Virus record (IMG/VR): IMGVR_UViG_3300028917_000273
Location: 1 to 23,203 of that record
Strand: one strand, 5' to 3'
Length of the DNA stretch: 23,203 nucleotides
Origin: a virus
Shown here: positions 2,466 to 20,309 of the stretch, piece after piece
Position numbering within the stretch: the stretch's first letter is position 1
Layout: each line of letters opens with the position of its first letter
Position numbers and translations under genes: made by a program
The notes under the pieces: generated by a model
The model's input: the letters and a program-made list of their open reading frames with translations, nothing else
Told to the model about the DNA's origin: nothing
Database searches by the model: none

Positions 2466-4911
2466 TCAATTTTTAGACACTTTAAAAAAGAGACTTTCTA
2501 CCATTTTTTCTACGGTTGAAAATCCATCTCTGTGGGCATTAGATCGTCTTGGAATAGATCTATATGACAATCAGATTGAGATTATAGATGCCGTTTGTGA
2601 TTTAAATGAAGACAAAGTTGCTATCGTACAAGCTAGAGGAAGTGGAAAGACCTTTTCAGTTGCTTTAAGTATTATCAAACTTTGTTTAGACATTCCCAAA
2701 TTTAAAGTTGGTGTTTTTGGTCCTAAGGCAGAACAAGCAGCCCGAATCATAAAAGTAATTCGTGAAGAGATTGTAAAACCTGGTAGTGCAATTTATGAGA
2801 CAATAAAATGGAAGGATTCAACAAATTCTAGATTGTCTTTTGTTAATGGCTCTGAAGTTCTAGCAATCTCCGCCGGAGAAGCAACTATGCAAGAGGGTTA
2901 TCACTTTCATATAGTAGTTTTAGACGAGTGTCACAGAATTTCTGATGTATCAGTCAATCAACGAATTGTACCAATGTTAGGGAGTTACAAAATAGCCAAG
3001 ATAGTAAAACTTGGTGTTTCAATGTACAAACAAAACTTTTGGAAAAGTTGTACTCATCCACAAACAGCCTATAAAGTTTTGATGAGAGATTGGAGAGAAT
3101 GTCCAATTTTATTAAAAGCTGGATCAATTGTTTATCAAAGTAGAGAGTACTCAAAATATGTTATAGACCAAATGCCTTTACGATTGAAAGAAAGTTATTT
3201 TCCAGACAGACCTGATTTGCATTATGATGGAGCAATGACAGAATTTGATTTTAATACTCAGTATGAAATGAAATGGGCTGATGATATTAATTTAGAATTA
3301 TCATCAGAAGATCAGACAGCTTTAATTGAAAGTGATCACGAAATTTTAAAAAGAGCTAATCCATCTTTACAAGAACAATTTTTCTTTGGCTTGGACACAG
3401 CATCTGGAACATTATATCCAGGTAAAAAAGATTTAGATTATACAGCATTGGCTATTTGGAGAAAGAAAAACGATAACGTTAAAGAAAAAGTTGCTGCATT
3501 TGAGTGGCAAGGAGATCCTTTAACACAACTATCAGAAATTGAAACAATTATTAATCCAAAAGATGGATTGTTTCCTTGTATGTTTGGTTTAGCCGATTAT
3601 AGTAATATTGCTCAAGGTGCTGTTGAGCAATTTAAAGCAAAAGGAATTCCTATTGACGGAATAATTTTTCAACAAATAAATGATAAAATTGAAGCACCAT
3701 CAGATATGCATGACGACCATTGTTGTTTTTCTGGAAATACAAAAATAAGATTATTGGATGGAACAACAAAAACAATTGCTGAATTATCTGACAATTTATT
3801 AGAAGATACTTGGGCATATAGTGTAGATCAAAATAATCATATAGTTCCTGGTAAGATAAGTAGAGCATGGAAAGTTGGTAATAAAGAAACACTTAAAATT
3901 ACTTTAGACAATAACGAATTTTTTGAATGTACACCAGATCATAAAATAATGTTAAGAGATGGAAGTTACAAAGAAGCAAAAGATTTACAACCAAATGATA
4001 GTTTAATGCCTTTGTATACTAAAAAAGAGGTTTTATTTAATAATTTAGAGTATGAATTTACGTATGATCCCGGAAAGGAAATTTTTATTCCAACACATAG
4101 AATAGTTGTATCCGTTCCTGAGAAGATGGTTCCACATCACAAAAACTTTAATCGTTTTGACAACAGACCAACTAATATTCAAATAGTTACATCAAAAGAA
4201 CATTGGCAAATACATGGAAAAGTAGCAAAGGAAACAAATAAAAGAGTTTGGAGTCAATTAAATAAAGAACAACGGATTAAGAGGTTAACTCCATCGTGGA
4301 AAAAATTAAAAGAGTTATATCAAAATCCAAAATGGATGAAATTTCTTTCAGAATCTATTAAGAAAAATTTACCACCTGTTGATCGTGAAATAGCAAGAGA
4401 GAAAGCAAAAAAACAATGGGAAGGAATTTCTTATCAAGAAAGACTAGAAAGAATGAAACCAATTATAGAAGCTGGAGCAAATGCTCGTAGAGGAAAATCT
4501 AGTTGGAATAAAGGTAAAAGAATAATTCATATAACGAATTGTCAAAATTGTCATAAAGAATTTGATTATCGTTTTTCAGAAATTCGTAAATTTTGTTCTA
4601 CATATTGTTGTCAACAATTTCAAAAACAAAAATTTGTTTTTAATCATAAAGTTGTAAAAATAGAAAAAAGTATTAAACAAGATGTGTATGATATAACGGT
4701 TGAGGTTTATCATAATTTTGCTTTAGATTGTGGTGTATTTGTACATAATTGTAGTGATGTATTGGCCGTTTGGGCTATGGACAAAACAGACCAATTTAAG
4801 AGAGGTACAGTAGCTACTTATCAAATACCCAAACCTGTCACAGGAGTTTCTACAGTTTTAGGAAGAGGAATACCTACAAATCAACCAAAAGAGAACAGGT
4901 ATCTTCAATGA
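2452..4911 (+). CDS. Terminase large subunit containing an in-frame intein
   Basis: DNA-packaging motor: an ATPase that pumps DNA into the prohead through the portal and a nuclease that cuts concatemers. Seen: Walker A (QARGSGKT, about residues 60-67), Walker B (VVLDECH, Asp158-Glu159), and an RNase H-fold nuclease start (FFGLDTASGT, Asp315). A second acidic site is at GLADYS and the third at HDDHCCSD once the intein is removed. The precursor is 819 residues; removing 342 intein residues leaves 477, a normal terminase length. ATG 2452 is preferred (AAAGGA 2435-2440); an in-frame ATG at 2425 would add nine residues and has no clear ribosome site. The intein splits the third catalytic acid motif, so unspliced protein should lack a working nuclease. 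Gene order (terminase, portal, protease, capsid) supports the call. Confidence 0.95.
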   Translation: MKILNQFLDTLKKRLSTIFSTVENPSLWALDRLGIDLYDNQIEIIDAVCDLNEDKVAIVQARGSGKTFSVALSIIKLCLDIPKFKVGVFGPKAEQAARIIKVIREEIVKPGSAIYETIKWKDSTNSRLSFVNGSEVLAISAGEATMQEGYHFHIVVLDECHRISDVSVNQRIVPMLGSYKIAKIVKLGVSMYKQNFWKSCTHPQTAYKVLMRDWRECPILLKAGSIVYQSREYSKYVIDQMPLRLKESYFPDRPDLHYDGAMTEFDFNTQYEMKWADDINLELSSEDQTALIESDHEILKRANPSLQEQFFFGLDTASGTLYPGKKDLDYTALAIWRKKNDNVKEKVAAFEWQGDPLTQLSEIETIINPKDGLFPCMFGLADYSNIAQGAVEQFKAKGIPIDGIIFQQINDKIEAPSDMHDDHCCFSGNTKIRLLDGTTKTIAELSDNLLEDTWAYSVDQNNHIVPGKISRAWKVGNKETLKITLDNNEFFECTPDHKIMLRDGSYKEAKDLQPNDSLMPLYTKKEVLFNNLEYEFTYDPGKEIFIPTHRIVVSVPEKMVPHHKNFNRFDNRPTNIQIVTSKEHWQIHGKVAKETNKRVWSQLNKEQRIKRLTPSWKKLKELYQNPKWMKFLSESIKKNLPPVDREIAREKAKKQWEGISYQERLERMKPIIEAGANARRGKSSWNKGKRIIHITNCQNCHKEFDYRFSEIRKFCSTYCCQQFQKQKFVFNHKVVKIEKSIKQDVYDITVEVYHNFALDCGVFVHNCSDVLAVWAMDKTDQFKRGTVATYQIPKPVTGVSTVLGRGIPTNQPKENRYLQ
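3724..4749 (+). mobile_element. Class 1 intein with HNH homing endonuclease in terminase
   Basis: 342-residue protein intron. The N-terminal splice block is CFSGNTKIRLLDG with Cys1. Block B has TPDH (Thr70, His73), block F is VYDITV with Asp at the F:4 position, and block G ends VFVHN followed by Cys+1. These are the residues of the classic class 1 splicing pathway, with all key residues present. The endonuclease part is HNH type: PHHKNFNRFDNRPTN with a further His in SKEHW (intein residues 137-160). A DNA-recognition region follows with a NUMOD3-like GKSSWNKGK and a Cys-rich element (CQNC ... FCSTYCC), probably a zinc finger. Exteins join as HDDHC|CSDVLAVWAM, which reads as a continuous terminase nuclease motif. 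Confidence 0.93.
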
Positions 4912-5167: not shown

Positions 5168-7879
5168 ATGGGACGACCAAAGGGAAGTAAAAATAGACCA
5201 AAAATAACATTGAAAGGTACTTATACTCAAGGTGGAGTGTTGGGGAATAGATCTTTAACGGCTGGATTAGTAAAAGAGGGTGGTTATGATGTAACAATGA
5301 AACCATCTTTCTTTTATTCACCAGAATTGACAACTGAATCATGGTTATTACCTAAATCTCGTCAAGAAATTTTAAAATGGGCTCGTATTTTCTTCAATTT
5401 AGAACCATATGTACAATCCATTGTAATGATGCATGCTTATTATCCATTTTCAAAATTTACTATTAGTACTCCTGACAAATCAATAACAGAATTTTATAAA
5501 GATATGGCATTCAATGAAGGTTTTGATTTGTTTAAATTTATTCTTCAAGCAAGTTTGAGTTATCAAAAATTTGGTGAAGCTATTATGTTTGGTAATATGG
5601 AGAAAGGTAAGGATAAATTACACCGTTGGACAAAATTTATTTTATTAGAACCCGAATTGGTTGAAATTAAAAGTGATCTTTTGTCTAATGATGTTTCATA
5701 TGAATTAATTCCTACTGAAGAATTAAAGAATTTGGTCAAGTCTGTCAAACCAGAAGATGCAGAACGTAAAAAGAAATTACAAGAAGATACACCTGCCGTT
5801 ATTGAAGCCGTTATACAAGGGAGAAATATTCAATTAGATCCAGAACATGTTTCACACGTTGCAAGGTTGACAGATCCATCAGCAACTCGTGGAACTAGTC
5901 CTATTCAATGTTTGTTTAAAGTTTTAATTTACCAAGATTGGATCCGTTTGGCTCAATCGGCATTTGCCCAAAGATATATCTTTCCAGTAGAACTTTGGAC
6001 AATAGGAGATTTACCATCAGGTCATATGCCAAGTGAGCAAGATTTATCAAATTTTAGAGACATTATTAATCAAGCAATTCAAAACCCACCTTTTACTATG
6101 GTATTTCCTCCTATTGTAAAGTATGAAGCCTTAAGTACATTGGGAAAACAATTTCCTATTAACAATGAGTACGATTATATTCACGACCAATTATTAGTTG
6201 GTATGGGAGTAAATAAAAATATCATTTTAGGCGAAGGTCCTAGTTTTCCATTATCAGAAGATTCAAGAGTTTTAACTAAAGATGGGTTGAAATATCATTG
6301 GGAACTAACTGAAAATGATTTAATTGCCTCATTTAATTCAAAAACAGAAGAACTAGAATATGTTCCGTTTGTTGATAAGTTAGTAATTCCTTATGAAGGA
6401 GATATGATTCATTTTAAAACTTCAAGAGTTGATCATTTAGTGGCTCCAAATCATAATTGTTGGAACAGAAAAGACAATCAAAGTGAGTGGCAATTAATAA
6501 AAGCAAAAGATGTAAAAACAGAAACACAATTTAGATTAGGAGTTAATTGGGAAGGAAAATTATTAGGTGATGTAAATGTTTTAGGCCACAAAATTCCAAC
6601 AAATCTTTTTATGAAATTAGTTGGTTATTTTGTTTCTGAAGGTTCTTCTGTTTATAAAGAAGGAAGAGATTATCAAGTTTGTGTGTCCCAAGGTGTTAAA
6701 AGTGATTGTTATCAAGATATTGATCAAACGTTTCAACAATTACCATTTAAAGTTCACAAATATTTTGATAAACAAAAATATTATTCTCGAAAAACAAAAC
6801 AAACTGAAATATGTGAAATGACTGACTGGAGATTATTTGGAAAAGATTTAACACAATATTTTAGAGAATCTTTTGGAGAAAATTCATACTCAAAACGAAT
6901 TCCATCTTGGATTAAAGAATTATCAAAAGAGCACTTGAAAGTTCTTTTAGACGCCCTTATTAAGGGAGATGGAAATGAAGACCACTCCTCATCTCAATGG
7001 GGACATACTTCAACATATTATACGTACACTACTAAATCACGGCAGTTGTGTGATGATGTTGTAGAAATTGCATTAAAATGTGGATTTGTTCCCACTTTTA
7101 GATATCTAAAAAATGAATATGTTGTGTATTTTAGTGATAGTTACCAAAAAGAGAAAGGAACGTTTTTCTTATGGGACAATAAAGAAAAAGGTATCGAAGG
7201 AAAAATAGCACGGGGAAATGCTATAACAAATGTTCCTTATAAAGGAAATATTTGGTGTATTGCATTAGCCAAAAATGGTTTATTTGTTTCTGAAAGAAAT
7301 GGTCGGTTAGTTATCACAGGTAATTCAAACGTAAAAACAATGGCACTCCATAAATTAATGATGATGTATAAGGTTGTGAGAGATGAGTTTGAAAACTGGA
7401 TAATTAACAAGTTTTTTAGACCTATAGCGATCAAAAATGAATTTTATGCGACTGTAGGCAAACAAAAGAAATTGATTCTTCCCCAAATTACTTGGAACAA
7501 ATCACTAGATATTGAAGAAGAAGAGGCTGAAAGACAATTCTTTTTGGATATGCATCAGAAAGGTTATCTATCTACTGAAACATTGTTTAGTAAATTTCCT
7601 ACAATTGATTATAATACAGAGCAAAAACGTTTGGAAAATGAAATTGGTACAGTGTGGGATAAGGGTGGTAAAGATAGTAGGTTACCAGCTAAAATTTCAA
7701 AACCAACTCCTCCATCAGGTACAGGTCCGGCTGGGATAGTGAGGCCAACTCCAATTGAACCAATTGAACCTACATTACCAGAAGGTGAAGAAATGGAAGG
7801 GGTTGAAGTACCACCAGAAACTCCAATTACAGAAACAACAGCACCAGAGGTAATTCCTCCAGAAGAACCAGGAGTATAA
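5168..7879 (+). CDS. Portal protein containing an in-frame intein
   Basis: Dodecameric ring at the capsid vertex through which DNA enters and to which terminase and neck bind. Precursor 903 residues; removing the 359-residue intein leaves 544, normal for portals. Seen: a helical/beta core with SQKFGEAIMFGN, DPEHVSHVARL, TRGTSPIQCLFKVLI and LVGMGVNKNIILGEGPSF. After splicing this reads on into SNVKTMALHKLMMMYKVVRD, which matches the long stem helix region typical of phage portals. The C-terminal 70 residues are Pro/Glu-rich and probably disordered. The N-terminus MGRPKGSKNRPK resembles an AT-hook, unusual for a portal. The ribosome site is AAGGAGAA just before ATG 5168. Placement directly after terminase supports the call. 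The family assignment rests on context and pattern, without a profile search. Confidence 0.88.
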   Translation: MGRPKGSKNRPKITLKGTYTQGGVLGNRSLTAGLVKEGGYDVTMKPSFFYSPELTTESWLLPKSRQEILKWARIFFNLEPYVQSIVMMHAYYPFSKFTISTPDKSITEFYKDMAFNEGFDLFKFILQASLSYQKFGEAIMFGNMEKGKDKLHRWTKFILLEPELVEIKSDLLSNDVSYELIPTEELKNLVKSVKPEDAERKKKLQEDTPAVIEAVIQGRNIQLDPEHVSHVARLTDPSATRGTSPIQCLFKVLIYQDWIRLAQSAFAQRYIFPVELWTIGDLPSGHMPSEQDLSNFRDIINQAIQNPPFTMVFPPIVKYEALSTLGKQFPINNEYDYIHDQLLVGMGVNKNIILGEGPSFPLSEDSRVLTKDGLKYHWELTENDLIASFNSKTEELEYVPFVDKLVIPYEGDMIHFKTSRVDHLVAPNHNCWNRKDNQSEWQLIKAKDVKTETQFRLGVNWEGKLLGDVNVLGHKIPTNLFMKLVGYFVSEGSSVYKEGRDYQVCVSQGVKSDCYQDIDQTFQQLPFKVHKYFDKQKYYSRKTKQTEICEMTDWRLFGKDLTQYFRESFGENSYSKRIPSWIKELSKEHLKVLLDALIKGDGNEDHSSSQWGHTSTYYTYTTKSRQLCDDVVEIALKCGFVPTFRYLKNEYVVYFSDSYQKEKGTFFLWDNKEKGIEGKIARGNAITNVPYKGNIWCIALAKNGLFVSERNGRLVITGNSNVKTMALHKLMMMYKVVRDEFENWIINKFFRPIAIKNEFYATVGKQKKLILPQITWNKSLDIEEEEAERQFFLDMHQKGYLSTETLFSKFPTIDYNTEQKRLENEIGTVWDKGGKDSRLPAKISKPTPPSGTGPAGIVRPTPIEPIEPTLPEGEEMEGVEVPPETPITETTAPEVIPPEEPGV
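6248..7324 (+). mobile_element. Class 3-type intein with LAGLIDADG endonuclease and Pro1 in portal gene
   Basis: 359 residues, from Pro in GPSF|PLSEDSRVLTKDG to Asn in LVITGN|S. Position 1 is Pro, not Cys or Ser. Block B reads LVAPNHNCW, with His69 and Trp72; Ala replaces the usual Thr. Block F reads IWCIAL with Cys337 at the F:4 position, and block G ends ITGN with Thr357 at G:5 and Gly in place of the usual penultimate His. Trp, Cys and Thr together are the known signature of class 3 inteins, which start splicing from the block F Cys. Two LAGLIDADG motifs are visible, LVGYFVSEGS (124-133, acid Glu131) and LLDALIKGDG (233-242, acid Asp241), so the endonuclease looks intact. Extein residue +1 is Ser. 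Confidence 0.9.
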
Positions 7880-8528: not shown

Positions 8529-8883
8529 TTATTCTACATGGTTAAAAAAAATTGTTAAAGTAGCATTGTTACAACATCCATATCTCAAAAAAGAGGCTCA
8601 ACCAGGTAATCGTAGACAAGATTTATCAAGGCCTATTTTAGAAAATTTGTTGCAACAAGGTTATGATACTGTTACATGGGATTCAGGAACGAGTGTTTGT
8701 CCTATATGTAGGGAGTTACACAATCAAAAATGGAGTTTGGCTGATTTTTTAACTGGACTTTTGCATGATGCTCCAATTGCAGAAAAAAGTCACCCAAATG
8801 ATAAAAGTTGTTTTGTTATCATACAAGGGCCCGGATTACAAAGCATTCGAGTAGACTATGATGGTAACATGGAGTATTTGTGA
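8512..8883 (+). CDS. Small head-associated protein with MuF-like Cys/His pattern
   Basis: 123 residues. The centre and end carry DTVTWDSGTSVCPICREL, then SHPNDKSCFVII. The C-P-x-C, then H-P-N-x-x-C arrangement is that of the C-terminal part of MuF-type minor head proteins (usually CPICxxL ... HPNCRC), where it probably binds a metal. Here the usual long N-terminal MuF part is missing; the preceding small genes may replace it, or this is a reduced form. The start ATG 8512 overlaps the preceding gene by 17 bases and has only AAGG directly against it, so translation probably depends on coupling. The position after portal and before the protease supports a head role. The MuF link is inference. 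Confidence 0.7.
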   Translation: MTTQSNYSTWLKKIVKVALLQHPYLKKEAQPGNRRQDLSRPILENLLQQGYDTVTWDSGTSVCPICRELHNQKWSLADFLTGLLHDAPIAEKSHPNDKSCFVIIQGPGLQSIRVDYDGNMEYL

Positions 8884-9623
8884 AGAAAATTTGTGGCGTT
8901 TATCAAATTGTTAATATTATTACAGGGAAAGTTTATGTAGGTTCTTCTGTAGATATAAAATCTCGATGGCAAGAACACACACGGGATTTAAAACTAAATC
9001 GCCATGAAAATCAGAAATTACAGATTGATTGGAATAAGTATACTCGATCTGCATTCAAATTTAAAATTTTGAAGATCAGTAGTGAAGATCAACTATCAAA
9101 AATAGAACAAAATTACTTAAACTCAGTAAAAAACAACTCTTACAATATGGAAAATAAAGTTGTTAGGTGTCCCTCTTCTAAGTTAAAGTTAGTTTATTTA
9201 CGTAAAAAGAACGTTAGAACTACTGATGTTGTTAATTATTACGTTAATGGTCACACAAAATGTGAATGTAGAAAACAATTTGATATCGGTGATGATTTAG
9301 TTACCAGAATCTTAAAAGATTATAATGTTTTAAGAAGCAAACCAGAAGCGTTAAAATTAATGCATCAACTTAAACCAGAAATTGCTAAGAAACAAGGTGC
9401 AAAACGCGTAGGATTATTTTTGGGTGCGAAAAGTTATTGGTTCGGTAAACCCGGGCCTATGTCTGGTAAAAAGATGCCTGAAAAATCTATAGAAAGAGGA
9501 TTAAGAACTAGAACCAAAAGATATGGAGATAATTATCATCCCAAAGAAGCTTTAATAAAAATTAGAAATTTAGCTTTAACTCAACCTCATGATTCAATTA
9601 CAGGACAATTTATTTGTAAATAA
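8880..9623 (+). CDS. Free-standing GIY-YIG homing endonuclease
   Basis: 247 residues, starting at GTG 8880, which overlaps the TGA of the preceding gene (GTGA). The N-terminal domain carries the GIY-YIG pattern: GVY at 6-8, YVG at 19-21, Arg29 in SRWQEH and Glu76 in KIEQNYL, all of the expected catalytic positions. The C-terminal part has a helix-turn-helix-like stretch (DIGDDLVTRILKDYNVL) and NUMOD3-like GKPGPMSGKKM, the DNA-recognition elements common in phage homing enzymes. It would cut genomes lacking the insertion and be copied in by repair. It sits between two head genes without breaking a visible reading frame. It is likely an inserted selfish gene, not part of head assembly. Confidence 0.92.
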   Translation: MKKICGVYQIVNIITGKVYVGSSVDIKSRWQEHTRDLKLNRHENQKLQIDWNKYTRSAFKFKILKISSEDQLSKIEQNYLNSVKNNSYNMENKVVRCPSSKLKLVYLRKKNVRTTDVVNYYVNGHTKCECRKQFDIGDDLVTRILKDYNVLRSKPEALKLMHQLKPEIAKKQGAKRVGLFLGAKSYWFGKPGPMSGKKMPEKSIERGLRTRTKRYGDNYHPKEALIKIRNLALTQPHDSITGQFICK

Positions 9624-17882: not shown

Positions 17883-18656
17883 ATGAAATTAGTACAATTA
17901 AATTATAATCAATTTAAATCAATTGTTGAAAGTAAAAATTTAGTTCTTCAATATGTAGAACATGTTGACAGATATGAATTATTTGCTATTGAAGGATCTC
18001 TTTCTTGGGAAACAACAATTTTAAAAGGATCAAACGATGCAACTGATTTTGAAACTAATTATAAAGATACTGCCAACCAACCCCTTTCTGTAAGAATTAA
18101 ATCCAGTTACATTAATAACAAACCAGTTGTACGTTCAGAATCAAGGCCCGATGATACTTCGTCATATTTTACAACTCGTGGAGATAGTGCAACAGGAATA
18201 GGAGATGGATCAAGATTTGAATGGGATTTTTCAAATTCTGATAATGAAGTTTCAGCACCATCTGGTTATAAACGAAAAAGAATAGAGACTAGTTTTGCAG
18301 ATGATGTGTGGGTAAAAGAGGGAACTGTTTATTTTTATAATACTCCGAAAGGTGCTTATATTGATTTTTATGTTGTATGTCCTGATGGTCAATACTATTA
18401 TGATAGAAATGGTGATCCTCAACAAGCTGTTGGTGATGTAATTATTGAACATTATGTAGTTGCTCATCCAATGCAAGATTCTGCTCCAATGGGTGATGAG
18501 TTAAATACAGAAGCTGCTACAATTAATGCTGTTCCACCTTCGTATAAATTTAGAATTGAAATTACAACTCCTGAATCAGATTCGGGGTCAAATGGTTATG
18601 CCGAATTAGAACTATATCGTATTAGGTCTATTTTACGTCCGGGTGAGGAAATTTAA
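17883..18656 (+). CDS. Structural protein with shared DFETN module
   Basis: 257 residues. ATG 17883 is chosen over an in-frame TTG at 17847 because GAGGA sits before it and the upstream part lies inside the previous gene. The N-terminal module (NLVLQYVEHVDRYELFAIEG; TDFETNYKDTANQ) is clearly related to the gene upstream. The rest is beta-rich (GSRFEWDFSNSDNEV; GTVYFYNTPKGAYIDFYVV; YAELELYRIRSILRPGEEI). The stop shares a base with the next ATG (TAATG). It looks like a paralogue that kept the attachment module and has a different C-terminal domain. Confidence 0.68.
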   Translation: MKLVQLNYNQFKSIVESKNLVLQYVEHVDRYELFAIEGSLSWETTILKGSNDATDFETNYKDTANQPLSVRIKSSYINNKPVVRSESRPDDTSSYFTTRGDSATGIGDGSRFEWDFSNSDNEVSAPSGYKRKRIETSFADDVWVKEGTVYFYNTPKGAYIDFYVVCPDGQYYYDRNGDPQQAVGDVIIEHYVVAHPMQDSAPMGDELNTEAATINAVPPSYKFRIEITTPESDSGSNGYAELELYRIRSILRPGEEI

Positions 18657-19174
18657 TGATTCGAAAACAAATGTTACGTCCGGGTGATTTAATTTTTTAC
18701 AGACCAAAAAAAACATGGTCTATTGGTTCTTGGTTTATTGCTTGGGCACAAAATGTAATAGGAAAATCTCCTATTCATAATGTTTCTTATTGTCATGTGG
18801 GAATTATTGATTCTGATACAAATTATCTTCTTGAATCTCGTTGGCCAAGATCAAGGCGCTGGAAAATTAATTGGAAAAAATTAGAAAAACAATATCATCT
18901 TGAACTTTGGAGAATTAGACATGTTAAAAAAGAAGAAATTGAAAAAGCTTTAAATTGGTGTTATGAACATTTAAATGAATGGTATGACTTAGGTCTTTTT
19001 ATTTGGGGTTTGTTCGATTTTAAAAATGCCGAGGTCTGTAGTACTTTTGTAGCGAAAGCTTGGAAAGCAGCTGGTCGAATATTTAAAATTCATAAACAAA
19101 TTCAACCAGATGCAGATTTTCATACACCGGATGAACTTATTGCTAATGAAGACCTTATTAAAAGGATAGCTTAA
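18656..19174 (+). CDS. Permuted papain-fold (YiiX/YaeF-like, NlpC/P60-related) hydrolase
   Basis: 172 residues; ATG 18656 overlaps the previous stop by one base. The N-terminus MLRPGDLIFYRPKK is the typical opening of the permuted NlpC/P60 group. His47 in SYCHVGI and Cys128 in AEVCSTFVAKAW occur in the permuted order (His first, Cys later) and are the likely catalytic pair. YDLGLFIWGLF before the Cys also fits. Members hydrolyse amide or ester bonds in cell-wall peptides or lipids. In a virion gene block it could open the cell wall locally at infection, or act on a virion or host protein. No signal peptide. Family call is fairly secure; substrate unknown. Confidence 0.8.
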   Translation: MIRKQMLRPGDLIFYRPKKTWSIGSWFIAWAQNVIGKSPIHNVSYCHVGIIDSDTNYLLESRWPRSRRWKINWKKLEKQYHLELWRIRHVKKEEIEKALNWCYEHLNEWYDLGLFIWGLFDFKNAEVCSTFVAKAWKAAGRIFKIHKQIQPDADFHTPDELIANEDLIKRIA

Positions 19175-19656
19175 TGGCAAATTTTACAACCAGACAACTT
19201 GAAATAATTCAAAGAGCTAGAAGGTTATTACCTGATAATTTTAGCCGGTATACTAATGACGAAAAGGTGCTCGCCTACGCTGAAGTAATTTTGGCAGACA
19301 TTAATTTATTTCCACCTTTAACCGGTTATACTACGGAAGATTTACCTGATAGTTTACTTCCTGTATTAGACTTTGGTATAACAGTAATGACGGAATTATT
19401 TTTACAAGCAAGAGCTACCTTACAAGATTTTAGTTACAACGATAATGGTCTTTCAATTTCTATTCAACAAGTACCTAATTTAGATGTTAGTTATAAAAAC
19501 ATGTTGGAACTTTATAGAAACATGATTACTAACTACAAAAAGACAGAAGTATTTAGAGTTGGTGGTAAAGGTCTTGGAACACCTCGCTTCCAGTCACAGA
19601 TTGGTCAGTTTTTAAAAATAAGTTTGGGAAGTTCATTTACATGGAACAGTCCTTAA
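19174..19656 (+). CDS. Helical phage protein, possible neck or head-tail connector
   Basis: 160 residues; ATG 19174 overlaps the previous stop (TAATG). Helical with a Pro-rich loop: RQLEIIQRARRLLPDNFSRY, KVLAYAEVILADINLFPPL, LPVLDFGITVMTELFLQARA. This helical pattern, with a beta hairpin (GLSISIQQVPNLDV), is like head-tail connector (gp6-type) proteins, but the match is by eye and weak. The last 16 bases overlap the homing endonuclease gene. Confidence 0.62.
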   Translation: MANFTTRQLEIIQRARRLLPDNFSRYTNDEKVLAYAEVILADINLFPPLTGYTTEDLPDSLLPVLDFGITVMTELFLQARATLQDFSYNDNGLSISIQQVPNLDVSYKNMLELYRNMITNYKKTEVFRVGGKGLGTPRFQSQIGQFLKISLGSSFTWNSP

Positions 19657-20309
19657 TAAATCAAAAAATTAGTAAGAAAGCAAAAGAACGGGCTAAAATT
19701 AAAAATCCAATTGTTAACATTTGGAAAAATTCTGATTGGATTAAAAATAATGTAGAAGCAAGAAAAAGAACACCAAAAATTTTATTTGTACATCCTCAAA
19801 ATCGAAAGGTGTATAAAATAAAGGAAAATGAATTTAGAACACAAGTTCAAATGCATGGAGTTTTGAAATATGCAAAATTACTTAATTGTTCTCAAAATAC
19901 TGTCAGAGAAAGATGTTACAAATTAGGAATACATTTAAAAGAAGGGCCTAGACCAAGTTTAGTTCAAACAATTGAATATAGTAAAAGAATGAGACGACAA
20001 AGATTAACTCAAAAATTTCCAACAAAAGCAACTTCAATAGAAATTAGACTTTGGAAAGAACTAGAAAGTAGAAATATTAAGTTTGAAAAACATAAATCAA
20101 TTTTAAATTTAACTCAACCCGATGCATTTATAGAACCAAATATTTGTATTTATGCCGATGGAGATTATTGGCATAATTTAAAAATTACTAAAAGTCAAGA
20201 CCAATACGTAAACAAAATTTTAAAAGAGAATGGCTACCGAGTATATAGATTTTGGGAACATGAAATAAATCAAGATGTTGGGTCATGTCTTGACAAAGTT
20301 CTAATCTAA
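19641..20309 (+). CDS. Vsr-like (EDxHD) free-standing homing endonuclease
   Basis: 222 residues; ATG 19641 lies inside the end of the previous gene. The C-terminal domain has the Vsr/EDxHD layout: Glu134 in TSIEIRLW, Asp161 in QPDAFIEPN, YADGDYWH (His178), Asp187, and YRVYRFWEHEI at the end of the fold, as in Vsr repair nucleases and phage homing enzymes of this family. The N-terminal part has a helix-turn-helix (KLLNCSQNTVRERCYKLGI) and basic stretches for DNA recognition. It overlaps a structural gene by 16 bases and is followed at once by the next one, as expected for an inserted selfish gene that keeps its neighbours intact. All catalytic positions look present. Confidence 0.88.
   Translation: MEQSLINQKISKKAKERAKIKNPIVNIWKNSDWIKNNVEARKRTPKILFVHPQNRKVYKIKENEFRTQVQMHGVLKYAKLLNCSQNTVRERCYKLGIHLKEGPRPSLVQTIEYSKRMRRQRLTQKFPTKATSIEIRLWKELESRNIKFEKHKSILNLTQPDAFIEPNICIYADGDYWHNLKITKSQDQYVNKILKENGYRVYRFWEHEINQDVGSCLDKVLI

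Follow-up and report, generated by a model that had tools for sequence, protein, structure and literature searches.

A phage portal intein that begins with proline: probable class 3 splicing chemistry in a member of a Cys1 intein family

How could an intein splice that begins with proline? The side chain of Pro1 offers no nucleophile, which rules out the opening step of class 1 splicing. Such an intein interrupts the portal gene of a viral DNA of 23,203 nucleotides (IMG/VR record IMGVR_UViG_3300028917_000273; this whole stretch is called the window below). The original prediction took it for a class 3 intein, on account of a Trp-Cys-Thr set of residues. Half of this reading stood: class 3 chemistry through Cys337 is still the best mechanism that we can offer, but membership in the canonical Trp-Cys-Thr (WCT) class is not supported. 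We put a probability of about 0.7 on the resulting picture, in which the intein would use class 3 chemistry via Cys337 while lying outside the canonical WCT clade, a state which it would have reached through the loss of Cys1.

The interrupted gene is a single open frame (positions 5168-7879) translated into 903 aa, the intein being residues 361-719 of this product. The two exteins, joined without the insert, give a predicted portal of 544 aa which matches phrog_16240 (E 1.9e-33) and shares 32.5% identity with its counterpart in Bacillus phage G; judged by these matches, the host gene encodes the portal of a tailed phage that is a distant relative of phage G. The exact insertion point is read from insert-free relatives. 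Three portals (L028, L029 and L030), which are 64-74% identical to that of the window, are continuous across the site (NKNIILGEGPSFSNVKTMALHK), their reading being an unbroken GEGPSF↓SNVKTM (here and below the arrow marks a junction), and some twenty further insert-free contigs also match across it. As the flanking residues are unlike the ends of the insert, F↓P and N↓S are the sole consistent boundaries, and this makes Pro1, as well as Ser+1, certain. The original prediction had announced an insert at 6248-7324 in a portal gene, Pro at its position 1 and a portal of 544 residues after its removal; the comparison with the three insert-free portals bears out the insert and its exact junctions, and the predicted length agrees. 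The tblastn matches in other phages, which mostly span query residue 2-6 to 359, also back the intein ends. The coordinates are collected in Table 1.

Table 1. Features of the interrupted portal gene, in positions of the window.
Feature	Position	Strand	Basis
Portal N-extein, 360 aa, C-terminal GEGPSF	5168..6247	+	phrog_16240, phage G portal, insert-free homologues
Intein, 359 aa, HINT splicing domain with LAGLIDADG insertion	6248..7324	+	Insert-free comparison, AlphaFold2, fold matches
Pro1 (CCA)	6248..6250	+	Cys in all non-tandem relatives read, L192 (Pro) excepted
Ala66 (B:7)	6443..6445	+	Thr or Ser in 81/81 aligned relatives
His69 (B:10)	6452..6454	+	Invariant in alignments
Cys71 (B:12), position of the class 3 Trp	6458..6460	+	Cys too in same-site L122 and L192
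Trp72 (B:13), other than the class 3 Trp	6461..6463	+	Trp in 20/84 relatives
LAGLIDADG motif 1, VGYFVSEG, acidic Glu131	6620..6643	+	Conserved column
LAGLIDADG motif 2, LLDALIKGDG, acidic Asp241	6944..6973	+	Pfam LAGLIDADG_3, E 4e-4, just under cut-off
Cys337 (F:4), proposed first nucleophile	7256..7258	+	Alignments
Thr357 (G:5)	7316..7318	+	Thr in 8/84 relatives, also in L122 and L192
Gly358-Asn359 (G:6, G:7)	7319..7324	+	Gly(G:6) family-wide
Portal C-extein, 184 aa, starts with Ser+1, SNVKTM	7325..7879	+	Insert-free comparison

A single sequencing error does not explain Pro1, because its codon, CCA, differs by three changes from the TGC found at the same place in L122, an intein described below. 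Contig L001 is identical to the window across the intein; by its sequence (100% identity to the window except in one 126-nt patch) the two probably stem from one virus population, and as independent support L001 counts for little. The patch itself, which is foreign, lies against window positions 3548-3674 and breaks the terminase frame just upstream of an intein in that gene; it is either an assembly chimera or a real patch.

The insert has the marks of a HINT intein: it is in frame, homologues lack it, it carries blocks A, B, F and G, and its predicted fold is HINT. Its AlphaFold2 model (pLDDT 90.2) consists of a HINT domain and a LAGLIDADG domain, and the fold matches over the whole length are homing-endonuclease inteins (Z up to 28, the intein matches together spanning Z 20-28). 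Both LAGLIDADG motifs carry their acidic residue (Glu131 and Asp241), and Foldseek finds LAGLIDADG enzymes; the nuclease is presumably active. A LAGLIDADG nuclease in a class 3 intein and a portal gene as its host had both been considered unusual. Neither is: LAGLIDADG motifs occur in 82.5% of 1701 class 3 inteins (PMC7891396), portal inteins were already listed (PMC5050341), and the relatives found in this analysis very often sit in portal genes.

The residues that matter for the splicing class are P1, A66 (B:7), H69 (B:10), C337 (F:4), T357 (G:5), G358, N359 and Ser+1. Class 3 inteins are defined by Trp at B:12, Cys at F:4, Thr at G:5 and His at B:10, the His and Trp being His65 and Trp67 in the Msm and Mle DnaB inteins (PMC5222942). 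In the window there is no Ser, Thr or Cys at position 1, Cys337 aligns in register at F:4, and Thr357 is at G:5 with Ser+1 after it, all as had been proposed; Ala66 likewise stands where block B should have Thr. But the residues which follow His69 are Asn70, Cys71 and Trp72, hence B:12 is Cys71 and Trp72 is B:13. The Trp three residues after the His is therefore real, while the class 3 Trp sits two residues after it, and Trp72 as the class 3 Trp was ruled out when the intein was aligned to 84 relatives and to seven canonical class 3 inteins. These seven references are the RecB intein of mycobacteriophage ET08 (L032) and phage TerL inteins; six of them have Trp at His+2 (HxW), L038 having no Trp, all seven end in THN, and their block A is two residues shorter than that of the window. 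As general background, some canonical class 3 inteins also begin with Pro. In sum, the window shares with the canonical WCT inteins (Bethlehem DnaB type, ET08 RecB, TerL) the lack of Cys1, Cys(F:4), Thr(G:5), Ser or Thr at +1 and, for many of them, the LAGLIDADG domain, whereas Trp(B:12), the THN ending, the shorter block A and a separate clade are their own. The signatures of the other classes are not found either: Pro1 stands in place of the Cys, Ser or Thr of class 1, and Cys337 at F:4 with Ser+1 in place of the Asp(F:4) and Cys+1 on which class 2 (KlbA) splicing is known to rely (PMC4031507).

Where do these residues come from? With tblastn and pattern scans we found full-length relatives in ThyX of corynephage P1201, in nucleotidyltransferases of C1 mycobacteriophages, in NrdA, NrdB and methyltransferases and in many portal proteins. 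Position 1 is Cys in 84/84 aligned relatives, B:7 is Thr or Ser and B:10 is His in every one of them, and B:12 is always Met, Val, Leu, Ile or Phe where the window has Cys. Cys at F:4 and Gly at G:6 are each found in 76 of the 84, Trp at B:13 in 20 and Thr at G:5 in only 8. Most of these relatives were retrieved with a pattern permitting Cys or Pro only at position 1, so the count is biased there; to avoid this, a second scan used patterns drawn from elsewhere in the intein, and Cys1 was found wherever position 1 could be read, except in tandem inteins of L133 and L146 and in L192, an intein of the same site. The scan of genome contigs found no relatives of the intein, and that of plasmids one distant archaeal record. 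From these alignments, Cys(F:4), Gly(G:6) and Trp(B:13) are traits of the Cys1 family and form no class 3 signature. In particular, the Gly in place of the penultimate His, which had been pointed out correctly (Gly358), is like Cys337 a feature of the family, and neither is an import from class 3. The phage inteins with Cys1 and Cys(F:4) (P1201 ThyX, C1 nucleotidyltransferase, Shivani NrdA, portals) have the xGN↓S/T ending, the LAGLIDADG domain and the block F Cys in common with the window, and differ from it at position 1, which is always Cys, and at B:7, which is always Thr or Ser.

Phylogeny leads to the same family. In trees built after removing the catalytic columns, the window falls inside the Cys1 family, next to portal inteins of another site (support 95/87). 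Joining it with canonical class 3 is rejected (AU p 2.1e-5), while the grouping of class 3 alone is not (AU p 0.39). The splicing-domain profile of the Cys1/Cys(F:4) family gives the window 132 bits, that of class 3 gives it 12 bits. The tree and profile comparison, by which class 1 and class 3 relatives were to be told apart, thus goes against class 3 membership.

The closest characterised relative is the AceL NrdHF intein (PDB 6zgq), which is the best match of the splicing domain both by sequence and by fold (Z 20.4, rmsd 1.9 over 149 residues); the canonical class 3 Msm DnaB intein (6bs8) comes lower, at Z 15.2. Against the Cys1 family profile the AceL NrdHF sequence, as far as it is available, reaches 51 bits; against that of canonical class 3 it reaches 4.5. 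AceL NrdHF has Ala1, Met at B:12, Cys at F:4, Thr at G:5, Gly at G:6 and Ser+1, it splices by the class 3 route with an essential F:4 Cys, and its authors considered it more class 1-like at B:12 (PMC7891396). It shares with the window the lack of Cys1 and of Trp(B:12), Cys(F:4), Thr(G:5), Gly(G:6), Ser+1, the block A spacing and the family as judged by profile. It differs in being split, in having no nuclease domain, in lying in a ribonucleotide reductase gene, and in its Ser at B:7, Met at B:12 and Ala1, where the window has Pro1; moreover, class 3 chemistry is experimental for AceL NrdHF and is predicted from sequence comparison for the window. As a member of the same family which is class 3 by experiment, it is a precedent for splicing without Cys1 in this family. 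It also gives a warning: Ala at B:7 made it fourfold slower, and changing Ala1 to Gly abolished splicing (PMC7891396), which means that position 1 is not free.

Two further inteins sit at exactly the site of the window, GEGP(S/N)F↓SN. In L122 (IMGVR_UViG_3300032053_000038) the portal is 59% identical to that of the window over the compared region and the intein 39%; in L192 (IMGVR_UViG_3300032069_000036) the figures are 54% and 43%. All three inteins have Cys(B:12)-Trp(B:13), Cys(F:4), Thr(G:5) and ITGN↓S. The L122 intein differs from that of the window in that it starts with Cys1 (F↓CVPAED) and has Thr at B:7, hence it is class 1 by signature. The L192 intein starts with Pro1, as in the window, and differs by a Cys of its own at position 2 and by the Thr which it retains at B:7. 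Since Cys71-Trp72, Cys337 and Thr357 have their counterparts alongside Cys1 in L122, the loss of Cys1 is not required for that set, and Cys(B:12), Trp(B:13) and Thr(G:5) are on their own uninformative on class. The tree is (window, (L122, L192)), with support 100/99, which implies that position 1 changed at least twice: for the three same-site inteins known, the Pro1 and Cys1 states need two changes under either polarity, and Cys1 would have been lost twice, or lost once and then regained in L122. Between the window and L192 we obtain dN 0.52, dS 1.32 and dN/dS about 0.4; with dS near saturation the ratio is a rough guide, and it points to purifying selection. What is new here is that a Pro1 lineage exists within a Cys1 family and that its own insertion site holds, in another phage, a relative with Cys1.

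On these grounds the following mechanism is proposed. The ancestor would have belonged to the phage intein family with Cys1, a second Cys at F:4 and the ending xGN↓S/T, and in the lineage of the window Cys1 would have become Pro and Thr(B:7) would have become Ala. Cys337, helped by His69 and Thr357, would attack the Phe(-1)-Pro1 bond, giving a block F thioester; Ser+1 would then take the N-extein, Asn359 would cyclise, and an acyl shift would restore the 544-aa portal, while the nuclease would spread the intein to portal genes free of it. Cys337, His69, Thr357, Asn359 and Ser+1, i.e. the full set for class 3 chemistry, are all present. A Pro at the scissile bond makes a tertiary amide, and in peptide chemistry such an amide twists more readily, which may ease its cleavage by a thiol. 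The Cys-His-Thr triad is the catalytic set of class 3 (PMC7664689). We infer that the intein splices, with Cys337 as nucleophile, and the class 3-like route was most likely reached independently, through losing Cys1. The class 3 mechanism outlives the result of the tree because Pro1 is incapable of the first class 1 step and because AceL NrdHF provides a precedent. Some facts count against this proposal: replacing Cys1 stops splicing in the class 1 inteins tested (PMC3196547), the WCT set grafted onto gp41-1 gave almost no splicing (PMC7664689), and B:12, normally a large hydrophobic residue, is Cys in the window.

An intein which has lost Cys1 and Thr(B:7), both of which act in the first step of class 1 splicing (PMC4031507), could also be impaired or dead, since these are changes that block class 1 splicing. 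The precursor would then stay whole or only be cleaved, and the portal would come from another genome or the virus would be defective; pseudogene inteins do exist, that of Arth_1007 being an example (PMC3196547). We consider this rather unlikely, as the 359 codons are open and the other conserved columns are intact, Pro1 is found in two lineages which are 43% identical with the dN/dS given above, and the insertion interrupts a conserved motif in a gene that is essential. Compared with the 35 columns that are strongly conserved in 81 relatives, the window clearly deviates at 1, 2, 7, 14 and 66 only; the deviations at 7 and 14 are common to L122, the private ones being 1, 2 and B:7, and Cys337, His69, Asn359 and both nuclease acids are retained. 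Such a pattern of losses would not be expected from random decay.

If the intein does splice, Cys337 still has competitors. In a class 2-like route, Ser+1 would directly attack the Phe-Pro1 bond; position 1 offers no nucleophile, and the phages of L122 and L192 have other portal inteins without Cys1 and with Asp at F:4, so that such a route may exist. We hold it to be quite improbable in the window, which has Cys(F:4) and Ser+1 as class 3 does, against the Asp(F:4) and Cys+1 of known class 2. A class 1 start from an inner nucleophile (Ser3 in the window, Cys2 in L192), with the N-junction shifted and one or two extra residues in the portal, is suggested by L192, which reads F↓PC with Cys one residue in. 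It is very improbable: FP or FPL would be left before SNVK, a motif that every insert-free relative has unbroken, the window has no nearby Cys, and the block A spacing is exact for position 1. Scarcely credible, finally, is a canonical class 3 intein with the WCT triplet, in spite of the position 1 without nucleophile, Cys(F:4), Thr(G:5) and Ser+1, given the Trp at B:13, the references with mostly His+2, invariant THN and shorter block A, and the tree and profile scores above. The use of Cys337 after the loss of Cys1 remains our preferred reading.

We must also note several observations on the mobile elements of these phages. The portal frames of L133 and L146 hold two back-to-back inteins at one site (DKLRE↓...↓SKYAQAD), the first starting with Cys and being without His(B:10) and Cys(F:4), the second starting with Ala or Ser and keeping both; the tandem possibly forms a composite active site. 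The portal of L122/L245 has another intein without Cys1, which starts with Gln (EILKW↓QYRGGES...VHN↓C), and L246, on the contig of L192, has one which starts with Tyr (LLPK↓YTSFSTK...TKN↓S); both have Asp near F:4 and a class 2-like look outside KlbA. Portals such as L043, L044 and L046 have up to two related inteins, at DKLRE↓SKF and FE↓AQYDKD, and are an intein hot spot. In the HK97-like portals L058 and L092 related inteins sit at R↓SNAEA; this seems to be the conserved portal motif that reads F↓SNVKT in the window, so that the site may be hit across distant portals. In the window, the neighbouring terminase gene has its own intein (3724-4749), with an HNH nuclease domain and class 1 by signature (Cys1, Asp at F:4, VHN↓C). 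A GIY-YIG endonuclease frame (8880-9623) is probably a free-standing mobile gene, as it is missing at the same place in L029 and L030. A DUF559/Vsr-like endonuclease frame (19641-20309), which overlaps the end of a gene of the structural region, is the fourth nuclease type within 23 kb. Among the tail genes, 18656-19174 has a weak match to permuted papain-like amidases (C92, YaeF/YiiX; E 4e-4, below the cut-off).

What does this mean for the origin of class 3 splicing? Class 3 inteins have been called monophyletic, with one loss of Cys1 from a phage progenitor with Cys(F:4) (PMC3196547). According to the opposing view, class 3 is unlikely to arise directly from class 1, as grafting class 3 residues failed (PMC7664689). 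The inteins of L122 (Cys1) and L192 (Pro1), which are 59% identical, together with that of the window, are a natural test of this disputed question. Taken as a series, L122, L192, the window and AceL NrdHF suggest that a family which had two cysteines lost Cys1 repeatedly. We therefore lean, by a little, towards class 3 consisting of several lineages, in which Cys1 was lost repeatedly from the Cys1 and Cys(F:4) family (giving Ala in AceL NrdHF and Pro in the inteins of the portal site) and the block F Cys took over. If this is true, the portal site with Cys1 in L122 and Pro1 in the window and L192 shows the switch between class 1 and class 3, or its reversal, under way. The classes defined by the sequence triplet and those defined by mechanism would then not coincide, a mismatch which matters for annotation and for the choice of tool inteins with a cysteine-free N-terminal part.
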